Shown: piece after piece, positions 2,063 to 46,941 of the stretch
Position numbering within the stretch: the first letter of the stretch is position 1
Layout of the letters: each line of letters starts with the position of its first letter
Origin: Paenibacillus alvei
GTDB taxonomy: Bacteria; Bacillota; Bacilli; Paenibacillales; NBRC-103111
DNA length: 64,000 nt
Direction: 5' to 3'
Assembly (NCBI GenBank): GCA_945881905.1
Contig: CAMCVV010000003.1
Span: 1-64,000, forward strand
Notes under the pieces: generated by a model
Told to the model about the DNA's origin: nothing
The model's database searches: none
Seen by the model: only the letters and a program-made list of their open reading frames with translations
Translations under genes and position numbers: made by a program

Positions 2063-2395
2063 TATTCATGTAGGGAATATCATGCGTGCGAGTAAAATCA
2101 CAAATGAAACTGTAAGCGAGCTGAAGCAATCCATATCGCTTGTGCCAACACCTCATCAAGATCTGAGTGGATCCTGCATAAGGATCACTGCGAAACACCA
2201 ATTCATTCACGGGCATGCCATATTACCTGAATTATAAAACAATGTCGAATACAAGATGAAAAATATTAAACAATATACGAATGTATTTACTTGAAATGGT
2301 GTCCGATACATTTTGAATTTCCAATGAATCGCCATACCGATGCCCATAATGATAAATACAGGTAAGATGATTTCAGTCACGAATGCTGCTATCAC
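2063..2395 (-). pseudogene. Decayed AEC-family (auxin efflux carrier-like) permease
   Basis: Two fragments of one membrane protein can be seen. The first frame (2395-2207) begins with a hydrophobic segment (EIILPVFIIMGIG) and a short KFKM stretch typical of the N-terminus of AEC-family transporters, then runs to FYNSGN. The family motif N-S-G-N-Y-G-x-P-V-N should follow. Here one base is missing (AAT-ATGGC-ATGCCC instead of AAT-TATGGC-ATGCCC), so the continuation MPVNELVFRSDPYA lies in the next frame (from 2216). Roughly 35-50 residues between the N-terminal part and FYNSGN also seem to be deleted, and nothing recognisable follows. The normal protein is about 300 residues, so this is a non-functional remnant. 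It directly follows the AI-2E-family gene. Confidence 0.65.
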
Positions 2396-3465
2396 TCCTT
2401 TGAGATATTATTATATTGCATATAGACATGCTGTACAATCACTTTGATCACAGCGAAGAAAGGTACCGCAAGAATCAATCCGACGATTCCAGCGATCTCT
2501 CCTCCCACCAATAAAGCGAAAATAATAACGAGTGGATGTAGATGAAGTTTCTTACCGACCACTTGAGGTGAAATTATATTTCCTTCTAGAACTTGAATCG
2601 ACACATTAACGACCACGACACATAACACCATTTTCAGTGAAATCGTTGACGCCATCAGCAATGCAGGTGCCGCTCCAAAAAAAGGGCCTAAATACGGAAT
2701 GATATTAAATATCGCAACCAAGCTAGCCAGAAGTAAAGGATACGGCATATCGATCCACCAGTAACCCAAGTAAGCCATTATTCCCACGATGGTGCATACG
2801 ATCAATTGTCCTCGTATATAGTTGCCTAAAGCTGTATCCACATCGATCAGTAATTTCACGGTTTGATGCCGATATGTTGGAGGGACGACTCTTAGCGCTG
2901 TCTTCTCTAATAATTGGAAATCTTTCAGTATGTAAAAAGCAAGAAAAGGAATAATGCAAGCAACCAAAAGCGTATTGATGGTGCTTCCAATCTGATTGAC
3001 ATATTCAGATACAGAGAACGATACCCAGTTTTCCAACTTTTCTAAGGAATGATTAAATCCTTGACGAATGCTATCAGGTAACCATGATTTCCGGTTGATG
3101 TTCTCAACGAATATCTGCACTTTTTTGTTCACATCAGGTAAATGTTCTTTCATTTCGCCAAATTGAGTAACAAAGAGAGGGATCAGATTCATGAGCATGA
3201 TCACTACAGAAAGGATAAATATGCTGTAAATCAGTAACACGGCTATCGTGCGAGGAACTTTACGGTTACTGAGTAAGTTTACGATAGGGTTAAGGATATA
3301 AGAAATCATCAGTGCAACGAGAAATGGCATCATCACTGCTTTCAAAAAGATAAACATACCATAAATCATAGGCTTGGTTAATATCAGTAAATATAAGATG
3401 CTTAGTCCAAGTAAGCTGTACACCAGGATAAGTAATGCTTTGCTTTTTCGAAAATAACGGATCAC
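2392..3465 (-). CDS. AI-2E/PerM family membrane transporter (YrrI-like)
   Basis: This multi-pass protein of about 357 residues belongs to the AI-2E transporter (PerM/UPF0118) family. It has two N-terminal hydrophobic helices, a long hydrophilic stretch (about residues 90-150), then four to five more helices with the family's C-terminal pattern (FNIIPYLGPFFGA, then EGNIISPQVVGKKLHLHPL). Members export small solutes or ions; the substrate here is unknown. An in-frame GTG lies at 3471, but the GTG at 3465 is better spaced from the GAGGT ribosome binding site. In Bacillus subtilis a relative (yrrI) is also close to alaS. The decayed AEC permease follows directly. Confidence 0.85.
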   Translation of the reverse strand: MIRYFRKSKALLILVYSLLGLSILYLLILTKPMIYGMFIFLKAVMMPFLVALMISYILNPIVNLLSNRKVPRTIAVLLIYSIFILSVVIMLMNLIPLFVTQFGEMKEHLPDVNKKVQIFVENINRKSWLPDSIRQGFNHSLEKLENWVSFSVSEYVNQIGSTINTLLVACIIPFLAFYILKDFQLLEKTALRVVPPTYRHQTVKLLIDVDTALGNYIRGQLIVCTIVGIMAYLGYWWIDMPYPLLLASLVAIFNIIPYLGPFFGAAPALLMASTISLKMVLCVVVVNVSIQVLEGNIISPQVVGKKLHLHPLVIIFALLVGGEIAGIVGLILAVPFFAVIKVIVQHVYMQYNNISKE

Positions 3466-3547
3466 TCTCACCTCAATTTGACCTAATCCTTATTCATCGT
3501 TCAGTATATGTACAACCCGCGTGTTTAATCCGTCTTGATGAACACAA

Positions 3548-3595
3548 ATAAAGAGCTTTCTGCTAGAGACGAATCTCTAGCAGAAAGCTCTTTAT
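3548..3595 (-). terminator. Perfect 22-bp stem terminator
   Basis: A perfect 22-bp inverted repeat (3548-3569 and 3574-3595) surrounds a four-base loop. On the minus strand it follows the zinc-ribbon gene and precedes the AI-2E-family gene. The T-rich tail is short (TTTATTTGTGTT). It probably ends the zinc-ribbon transcript. Confidence 0.8.
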
Positions 3596-3677
3596 TGAGA
3601 ATTAGCATTTTCACTCAGCTACATGACTCAACTCTGAGTGAGTGAGAACCGCTGTTGCTGGTCCCGAGTTGAATGGG

Positions 3678-3872
3678 TTATTGAACTTGCATCGGTGCTC
3701 TCGCTTCGTCGTCAAACAGATCGTCTAATGAGCTGAGCGTGCCGTCTTCTTCGACTTGGAAAACACATACCTTCTCTCCATTAACAGTTAACTCGATACA
3801 ACAGCTCCAACAATAAAACTGGTTATTCCCTATTTTCCCGATATCTTTCGAATTGCAATTTGGACAACGCAT
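3678..3872 (-). CDS. Small zinc-ribbon protein of unknown function
   Basis: This 64-residue protein has a clear zinc-ribbon: C3-x2-C6 and C21-x2-C24, with a third cysteine at 25. The pattern resembles short transcription-associated or PRC-neighbour proteins that occur near alaS in other Bacilli. The C-terminal half is acidic (SSLDDLFDDEA) and could bind a partner. An AAGGTG ribosome binding site lies about ten bases before the ATG. The gene stands alone between the strong terminator and the IS607-type recombinase. I do not know its function. Confidence 0.75.
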   Translation of the reverse strand: MRCPNCNSKDIGKIGNNQFYCWSCCIELTVNGEKVCVFQVEEDGTLSSLDDLFDDEARAPMQVQ

Positions 3873-4126
3873 GATATGTCACACCTTATTTTTGTTTGTT
3901 AACCGAACTACGATGATATTTGGATCCTGATACAAATTCGCTTGATACTTGTCTTCCCTGATTTCAATACAAGTAAACATTTTCCATTGTATTACACATG
4001 TTATCTATGTATACATTTTTGATTGTAAAAAATAACATATAGAGAGTAAACAATATCTCTTCGTCAGAATCGTTACCGCATCTTCTTTAAAAGCAAGTAT
4101 GTATCACTTCCTCCGACCAGGATTTC
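3873..4126. other. AT-rich gap downstream of the IS607 recombinase
   Basis: This 254-base stretch lies where the TnpB gene of an IS607 element should start. I translated the minus strand here and found only short frames with early stops and no TnpB-like motif. It probably contains the promoter of the zinc-ribbon gene (AT-rich, with runs such as TTGTTTACTC), but no clear consensus. Confidence 0.5.
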
Positions 4127-4759
4127 TTAAGGCATCATTTGTTCGCAAATATCCACAGCTAATAGCTCTTTGATCATTTTCTTTGCTTTATTGGAGCGTT
4201 TACCTTGTTGCTTAAAACTGAAATCTGAAACAATTTGAATCAGATCTTCAACAAATTCTTGTTCACCCATTTTCGGGGTTTGATCGATCACTTCGATGAC
4301 AACTCCATGATTCTGACAAATACTTTCAATTAACTCAAAACCAAATCGAATGAGGCGGTCTTTATAGAGAATAACAACACGCTCTACTTGGTTACTTAGA
4401 ATCAATTCAACCAAAGCAGATAGTCCTTTTTTGCTATAATTGATACCACTGCCTATATCTTCAATGATTTCAAAAGTATACCCTTTTGCAATCATGAACA
4501 TTTTCACTTGATCAACTTGTCGTGCGAGATCTTCTTTTTGCTTAATTGATGATACTCGGCAATAACCAATCGTTTTGCGTTTAGGCTGTAAATCTTCTCT
4601 AATTCCCCAAAAATGATTTAGTTGATGTTGTGAATAATATCGGTGACCTCCATCAGAAACATGATGCGGTTTAAGTTTTCCCGATTTATCCCAATTTCTT
4701 AAAGTCTGTTCCGTTCTGCTAATTAATTCTGCAAATTCTCCTATCGGATACAGTTTCAT
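4127..4759 (-). mobile_element. tnpA: IS607-family transposase TnpA (serine recombinase), no TnpB
   Basis: This 210-residue protein has the two parts of IS607 TnpA: a MerR-like helix-turn-helix at the N-terminus (about 1-50, with TEQTLRNWDKSGKL and GGHRYY), then a small serine-recombinase domain. The catalytic serine is S70 in YCRVSS, and the second active-site cluster YKDRLIRFG is at 132-140. The C-terminal segment (EDLIQIVSDFSFKQQGKRS) is complete, so the gene looks intact. The ribosome binding site AGGTGG is good. IS607 elements normally carry tnpB just downstream, overlapping tnpA; none is present here. Such enzymes move a circular intermediate with little target specificity. It lies between a zinc-ribbon gene and iscS. 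Confidence 0.9.
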
Positions 4760-4769
4760 ACAATCACCA

Positions 4770-4788
4770 CCTGTATGTAGTATACAGG
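4770..4788. repeat. Short inverted repeat upstream of tnpA
   Basis: A 7-bp perfect inverted repeat (CCTGTAT, five-base loop, ATACAGG) lies immediately upstream of the tnpA ribosome binding site. It could be an operator or a TnpA-binding end site, because the protein has a MerR-like DNA-binding domain. The link is inference from position only. Confidence 0.35.
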
Positions 4789-4867
4789 AATATATCGAAA
4801 AAAAATACTATTTTTTCCTTTTTTTATAAAATGTGTATTTTTATGCTTATGATTGAACACATATCTG

Positions 4868-6040
4868 CTACAATTTTGAATATATGCGCTGACTTCGTAT
4901 TCTTTCGACAATCTGAGATGTTTTTTGTACGGCTTCTATGATTTCCTCACGTGTGTTCTGAAAACCAAAACTGAATCGAACTGCGGAATTCATCACTTCC
5001 TGAGGGATATGCATAGCTTGCAAAACGTGTGATGCTTCTACGGATCCCGAAGAGCACGCAGACCCACTTGATATAGCAACACCTGCTAAATCCAAGTTCA
5101 TCAGTAGAGTCTCTGAGCTGATACCTGGGAAACTGATGTTCACAATATGGGGTAGTCGCTTAGTTGGATGACCATTGAACACGTAATCTGTTGGAGCCAT
5201 GTGACGATGGAGTTCTTCAAAAAAGCATTCCCTGAGTTGATTCATGTGATCGATATATGCCGATAATTGTGTCATAGAAAGTTCTACAGCTTTGGCAAAT
5301 CCAATAATTCCTGCGACGTGTTCAGTACCTGCTCGACGCTTTTTCTCTTGAGAACCACCTACGAATAGCGGAGAAATGGATGTTTGTTGGGAGATGTAGA
5401 GCGCTCCCATACCTTTGGGTCCGTTAATTTTATGAGCTGAGAAACTCATCATGTCCACACAGAGTTGGGTCAAGTCAATCGAGCACTTACCCAATGCTTG
5501 TACAGCATCTACATGGAATAATATCCCTCGTTCTTTGGCTAGTTGACTGACTTCAACAAGCGGTTGAAGCGTCCCCACTTCATTATTCCCATACATCACA
5601 CTAATCAAAACGGTGTCTGGACGAATCGCTCTTTGTATTTCTTCAACATCTACAAGCCCATATGAATCCACAGAAACAAAAGTAACTTCTATACCGTCTT
5701 GACGTAATTGCTTCATCGGCATCAAAATGGCATGGTGTTCAATTTCTGTAGTGATCACATGTAGGCTTGATGTGTGTACACGCGTCGCTTGTAAGCTACC
5801 TTTGATCGCGATATGATTGCTTTCTGTTCCTCCGCTCGTGAAAACAATTTCATGAGGTGCACATTTCAGTCGAGCAGCGATCAGTTCTCTTGCTTGTCCG
5901 ATAGCGAATTGTGCTTGTCGACCCCATGCATGGATACTCGATGGATTTCCGAACTGTTCAGTGAAATATGGGAGCATAGCTTGCAAAACTTCAGGATGCA
6001 TCGGTGTCGTTGCAGCATGGTCAAGATAGATGTGGTTCAT
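4868..6040 (-). CDS. iscS: Cysteine desulfurase (IscS/YrvO type)
   Basis: This PLP enzyme takes sulfur from cysteine and passes it as a persulfide. The protein of about 390 residues starts MNHIYLDHAATTP. It shows the PLP lysine in SFSAHKINGPKG and the catalytic cysteine in SSGSACSSGS near residue 325. A GTG lies three codons upstream, but the GGCGGAG ribosome binding site is correctly spaced only for the ATG at 6040. It follows cymR by about 20 bases and lies close to mnmA. In B. subtilis the same trio (cymR, yrvO, mnmA) is clustered, and YrvO is the sulfur donor for MnmA in tRNA 2-thiolation. That role is the best inference here. Confidence 0.95.
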   Translation of the reverse strand: MNHIYLDHAATTPMHPEVLQAMLPYFTEQFGNPSSIHAWGRQAQFAIGQARELIAARLKCAPHEIVFTSGGTESNHIAIKGSLQATRVHTSSLHVITTEIEHHAILMPMKQLRQDGIEVTFVSVDSYGLVDVEEIQRAIRPDTVLISVMYGNNEVGTLQPLVEVSQLAKERGILFHVDAVQALGKCSIDLTQLCVDMMSFSAHKINGPKGMGALYISQQTSISPLFVGGSQEKKRRAGTEHVAGIIGFAKAVELSMTQLSAYIDHMNQLRECFFEELHRHMAPTDYVFNGHPTKRLPHIVNISFPGISSETLLMNLDLAGVAISSGSACSSGSVEASHVLQAMHIPQEVMNSAVRFSFGFQNTREEIIEAVQKTSQIVERIRSQRIYSKL

Positions 6041-6060
6041 GCAAGTCACTCCGCCTTTAG

Positions 6061-46815: not shown

Positions 46816-46941
46816 GGTTACTACACCTCCTCATGTCTCAGACTCGCCTTAACGTAGGTGACTCTCTGCACGAAATGTGAAATCGCGTACACAGTGTACT
46901 TAAACCCGATTCGAGCGGTTACAGCATGCTTACCACACACT
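46816..46941 (-). promoter_or_regulatory. L21-type leader upstream of rplU
   Basis: The transcribed leader from the promoter to the rplU start is about 125 bases long and contains complementary segments (GTAAGCATGCTG..., GTGTACGCG, AGAGTCACCTACG). It resembles the Firmicute ribosomal L21 leader that L21 is thought to bind for autoregulation. I judge this from position and pattern only. Confidence 0.5.

Follow-up and report, generated by a model that had tools for sequence, protein, structure and literature searches.

An intact IS607-family tnpA gene sits alone between iscS and a small CxxC-type gene in the window, by which we mean the whole stretch of 64,000 nucleotides that was analysed. TnpA belongs to the IS607 family and its frame is intact, the gene is single copy, the genome carries neither tnpB nor a recognisable right end, and the position of tnpA is specific to its lineage. 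We conclude that the gene is probably a stranded, immobilised relic of a decayed RAGATH-18-type IS607 insertion that lacks tnpB and the right end. The features of the locus are collected below.

Features of the tnpA locus in the window
Feature	Position	Strand	Remarks
AI-2E family transporter gene, conserved neighbour, host	2392..3471	minus	
64-aa CxxC-type ORF, right neighbour, host	3678..3872	minus	zinc-ribbon-like by eye; in 104/104 family genomes
Gap after tnpA	3873..4126	minus	no tnpB or RAGATH-18/right-end match (alignment, profile, covariance model, Rfam)
Weak candidate degenerate right-end tip	4070..4093	minus	ends AACGA, not AACGG; p about 0.025, may be chance
tnpA, intact 210-aa IS607-family serine transposase	4127..4759	minus	open frame, profile and phmmer matches
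Gap from iscS stop to tnpA, expected place of left end	4760..4867	minus	no GG-AACAG terminus
7-bp perfect inverted repeat, 5-nt loop	4770..4788	minus	over tnpA ribosome-binding site; probable RBS-occluding hairpin
iscS-type cysteine desulfurase gene, left neighbour, host	4868..6049	minus	

TnpA and its close relatives

The preliminary description had recognised a 210-residue IS607 TnpA with both domains and a full active site, and the protein bears this out. The open frame (210 codons, 4759-4127) scores 210.3 bits with the NCBIfam model for IS607 family transposases (NF033518), whose cut-off is 110. It encodes a MerR-type DNA-binding domain (Pfam MerR_1, residues 4-61) followed by a Resolvase domain (residues 64-194); a score above the curated threshold and this order of MerR-type and serine-recombinase domains place TnpA in the family. 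The motifs GYCRVSS and YKDRLIRFG, which we take to be the active-site serine and conserved-arginine motifs, align with those of 23 relatives. Moreover, TnpA aligns with its relatives along its whole length, and phmmer matched it to the solved IS607-type catalytic domains 3lhk, 3lhf, 3ilx, 6dgc, and 6dgb. The product may still be translated.

TnpA deviates from 12 close relatives at two columns that are otherwise invariant (L to F and L to Q), and the other relatives carry 0 to 7 such deviations, so there is no excess. The L to Q change probably falls in the region of helix E, which structural work on IS607 TnpA describes as remodelled while the paired-end complex assembles. The tree branch of TnpA (0.46) is not unusually long, with those of three relatives at 0.49 (L032), 0.44 (L003), and 0.71 (L094), and TnpA nests inside the close clade with support of 100/98. 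The G+C content of tnpA is 35% versus 44% in iscS; an equally low value occurs in 33 of the window's 634 blocks, and low G+C by itself is a weak sign of foreign origin.

The close clade was represented by 27 fetched loci with TnpA about 51 to 66% identical (L002, L003, L031-L041, and L093-L106), two of which (L031 and L038) look like one and the same element. A tnpB match adjoins tnpA in 27/27, in most of them overlapping the tnpA 3' end. Because every one of these loci carries tnpB and our TnpA nests inside the clade, the loss of tnpB is derived. The tnpB gene is near full length in 25 of the 27 and broken in L032 and L096, and tnpA itself is broken in L033 and interrupted by one stop in L002. 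TnpB, whole or in pieces, is also present in most of the more distant or partial loci; these queries did not find it in L051, L052, and L004, and in L051 a 500-residue frame overlaps tnpA. We note that L096 (genome G633) retains an intact tnpA and right end next to a tnpB match of only about 97 residues and is a natural intermediate of tnpB loss.

The borders of complete elements could be fixed for this clade because six copies in one genome (G512) have a common left end, GGGTAATAACAG, and a common right end, GGCAACGG, while their flanks differ. These borders agree with the GG published for IS607 element ends (PMC6188088). RAGATH-18, the guide RNA described for IS607 TnpB (PMC11061315), was found in the right ends of 5/5 relatives given to Rfam, and complete close-clade copies end in the RAGATH-18 guide RNA and a terminal GG. 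A wider search for relatives gave 3 loci from genome contigs and 223 plasmid records, of which two were fetched; there were none among viral contigs. No TnpA relative above 66% identity appeared in the contigs, the viral contigs, the fetched plasmids, or the genome samples (104 from the family, 398 from the class, 296 from the order, and 398 from the phylum). Finally, genome G134 has two further right-end/RAGATH-18-type matches (contigs C5 and C39) with no listed TnpA at E 1e-20, possibly tnpA-less copies or fragments at contig ends.

Partner gene, element ends, and upstream repeat

In IS607 family elements, a tnpB gene downstream of tnpA is usual but not required. The preliminary description had found no tnpB, guide RNA, or remnant in the 254 bases after tnpA, and a targeted search for each agrees. 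The TnpB families PF07282 and PF01385 gave zero matches across the whole 2.4-Mb genome, and the same searches detected them in 6 and 7 of 14 control genomes. Local alignment of the gap 3' of tnpA with tnpB of 13 relatives was likewise negative (p = 0.46 for the first 60 nt, p = 0.62 for all 254); four relatives used as positive controls for the 60-nt test gave z of 9.3 to 11.5. On that result and a negative protein profile, we rejected a TnpB remnant past the tnpA stop. The +1 frame in the last tnpA codons reads IFANK, and the tnpB of relatives begins ILANK or ILAKK. A likeness this good occurs at 0.03% of places in the window, yet 17% of synonymous recodings of the TnpA tail match equally well, and we rejected it as independent evidence of a tnpB start. 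Rfam found no guide RNA in the gap, and RAGATH-18 is absent from the entire window. Thus, the locus has neither the downstream tnpB of a usual IS607 element nor the RAGATH-18-bearing right end of the RAGATH-18 type.

The gene is also alone in its genome (2.40 Mb searched, 87 contigs, 99.6% complete). TnpA has one match there, its own, and the 995-base tnpA interval has no second copy, the remaining DNA matches being 22 to 38 bases long with E of at least 0.02. Other copies sharing the flanking DNA, a prospect raised in the preliminary description, were looked for and not found.

A right end could not be recognised. A profile of 12 right ends found nothing near tnpA and scored four left-out relatives at 75.9 bits or more. 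A covariance model, R1, built from 11 right ends, was tried on 9 further loci and matched 8 of them, at 64.6 to 151.2 bits; the one without a match was L043, a member of a distant clade. R1 also matched in 3/3 control genomes, among them G512 with 6 places, equal to its 6 tnpA copies. R1 had no match in our genome, and its best score over 3500-5000 with filters off was 5.7 bits; a score of 18.9 bits (E 0.027) elsewhere in the window was taken for chance. A matrix of the right-end tip placed its best 24 nt within the gap at 2.7, against self-scores of 19.4 to 34.2 for relatives (p = 0.024 to 0.027), and the test was negative once gaps were allowed (p = 0.66 to 0.77). The stretch bears a weak resemblance to a right-end tip, possibly by chance.

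The left end was no clearer. A left-end profile (nhmmer) had no match in the window. A pairwise test of the upstream gap against 13 related left ends gave p = 0.045, and five left-out relatives gave z of 4.5 to 12.7. The dinucleotide GG is absent from 4819-4900; in the remainder of the upstream gap it occurs once, at 4818, if the ribosome-binding site is left aside. IS607 elements have short directly repeated motifs near their ends to which TnpA binds; the motif TATAAAAAT has 3 matches with at most 2 mismatches in the 88 upstream nt, a number equalled or exceeded in 34% of shuffles. The left-end value and that of the right tip hint at a residue of both ends, and being among several tests on one short region they are treated as weak.

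The preliminary description had also offered an inverted repeat upstream of tnpA as a candidate TnpA-binding site. The repeat exists and is perfect, with arms at 4770-4776 and 4782-4788 that read CCTGTAT-5-ATACAGG on the minus strand; shuffling the 35 bases beside the start codon produces a 7-bp stem in 0.9% of cases, and shuffling the entire gap does so in 11%. In IS10, IS50, and IS200, read-through mRNA folds into hairpins that sequester the ribosome-binding site. When 29 tnpA upstream stretches were folded, our own included, 11 reached a z of at most -2, and in several of these the whole ribosome-binding site was paired. Our own copy gave z of -1.58, or -0.70 in a longer stretch, and the test supports a hairpin for related tnpA genes as a class and not for this copy. 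Known IS607 TnpA sites are short direct repeats (PMC6188088). The repeat here, by contrast, is inverted and lies over the ribosome-binding site, a place where strong hairpins are frequent in related tnpA genes. By analogy, a hairpin masking that site when mRNA reads through from iscS would therefore fit better than a TnpA-binding site.

The host locus in relatives

The minus-strand order is iscS, 108 bases, tnpA, 254 bases, the 64-codon CxxC-type gene, and the AI-2E transporter gene. The 64-aa ORF (3678-3872) has no Pfam or NCBIfam match, and the 104 family genomes that carry it include our own. A comparison of the locus with and without tnpA, as the preliminary description had suggested, found the host order kept: iscS adjoins the small gene in 29/29 relatives' loci, with the AI-2E transporter found in 28, and tnpA lies between iscS and the small gene in none of the 29. 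A tnpA position kept in all relatives is thereby excluded; the insertion is therefore specific to our lineage, with our own genus represented in the comparison by one genome. In the 74 family genomes not read at the locus, no well-scoring TnpA lies near the small gene by coordinates, the nearest being a fragment in G088 about 6.5 kb off.

The interval between iscS and the small gene is occupied differently in relatives. It spans 551 to 768 bases and holds a PRC-barrel-type open frame in 27 of the 29 (Pfam PRC was confirmed for one frame, in L066, and the frame of L091 looks broken), and it measures only 159 (L064) and 110 (L065) bases, with no frame, in the other two. A PRC-barrel remnant after tnpA, matched by eye at EDAVTI, was rejected when a profile search found nothing there, and a search of our genome for a PRC protein, run without a positive control, found none. 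Two RNA features of the window may be recorded here. A perfect 23-bp inverted repeat with a 4-nt loop lies between the 64-aa gene and the AI-2E transporter gene (3547-3596) and is terminator-like on the minus strand, and Rfam microRNA matches to the same bases were below threshold and spurious. On the minus strand at 46830-46930, a ribosomal protein L21 leader (RF00559) scored barely over the gathering score.

Origin of the locus and known systems

Decay is the most probable account of how tnpA came to stand alone. A RAGATH-18-type IS607 element would have landed between iscS and the small CxxC gene and then lost tnpB, together with its guide-RNA-bearing right end, to a deletion; its left end would have decayed or been trimmed, leaving an intact, possibly translated tnpA without recognisable ends on which to act. 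Decay of one IS607 insertion would account for the missing tnpB and right end, the unrecognisable left end, the single copy, and the lineage-specific site. If the candidate tip is real, the deletion would have stopped short of it after taking out tnpB and the guide RNA, and the tip's terminal G would have been lost afterwards. This order of events is our inference, as is the view that the ends no longer work and have not simply diverged. Against a relic, the fully open frame and the ordinary branch length give no visible sign of decay.

The preliminary description had entertained a minimal mobile unit, and the gene might conceivably be a tnpA-only IS607 element that still moves, a minimal form like IS200 with diverged ends at roughly 4070 and about 4868. 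The intact frame, the weak tip, and the weak left-end similarity would suit such an element, and PMC6188088 reports that tnpA by itself is enough for IS607 to transpose in E. coli. The same source reports different IS607 elements with ends unrelated in sequence, so the ends here could be diverged yet working. We consider continued mobility improbable, however, since the candidate right tip ends GA and the left has no GG, whereas complete relatives have GG at both ends; moreover, neither end is recognisable, there is a single copy with no other sharing its flanks, and no tnpA-only relative occurs among the 27 close-clade loci. A specific version, in which a counterpart of IS200 has shed its nuclease and its ends use a non-GG crossover dinucleotide, is very improbable. 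Were the gene still mobile, an IS607 element could persist without TnpB. No tnpA-only IS607 element was announced in the literature searched, which lay mostly outside subscription journals.

The two other origins first proposed fare no better. A recombinase domesticated under selection for a host function would explain an open frame with all domains despite the loss of tnpB, and the gene has a stable context in an 87-kb contig. Its position is not conserved, however, being empty of tnpA in all the family members read; in the rest of the family, the small gene has no full-length TnpA nearby, and two otherwise invariant positions are substituted. Domestication is thus highly doubtful. Perhaps the gene instead provides other IS607-type elements with TnpA in trans, as a protein that looks complete might do, but neither a RAGATH-18-type right end nor TnpB nor another TnpA occurs in the genome, and we find this scarcely credible. 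A relic matters little beyond correct annotation: the gene should be annotated neither as a mobile unit nor as a domesticated recombinase. As a relic, it is one natural case of tnpA outliving tnpB and the guide RNA, and losing partner and ends in this way would be a normal step as such elements decay.

Among known systems, the catalytic domain of our TnpA (about residues 61-197) aligns with those of ISC1926, ISC1904, and IS1535 (6dgc, 3ilx, and 6dgb; phmmer E 1e-30 to 5e-9), which come from known IS elements, whereas our TnpA has no partner gene or recognisable ends. Also comparable are the IS607 elements with a RAGATH-18-derived reRNA, of the ISFba1 TnpB type (PMC11061315), whose TnpA is 51 to 66% identical to ours; unlike them, our locus lacks tnpB, the RAGATH-18 RNA, the right end, and recognised GG-bearing ends. 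The closest relative found is the IS element of G512, with six tnpA copies at 65 to 66% identity and a TnpA of the same clade. Unlike our gene, that element is multicopy and has an intact tnpB, a GG...AACAG left end, and an AACGG right end with RAGATH-18.
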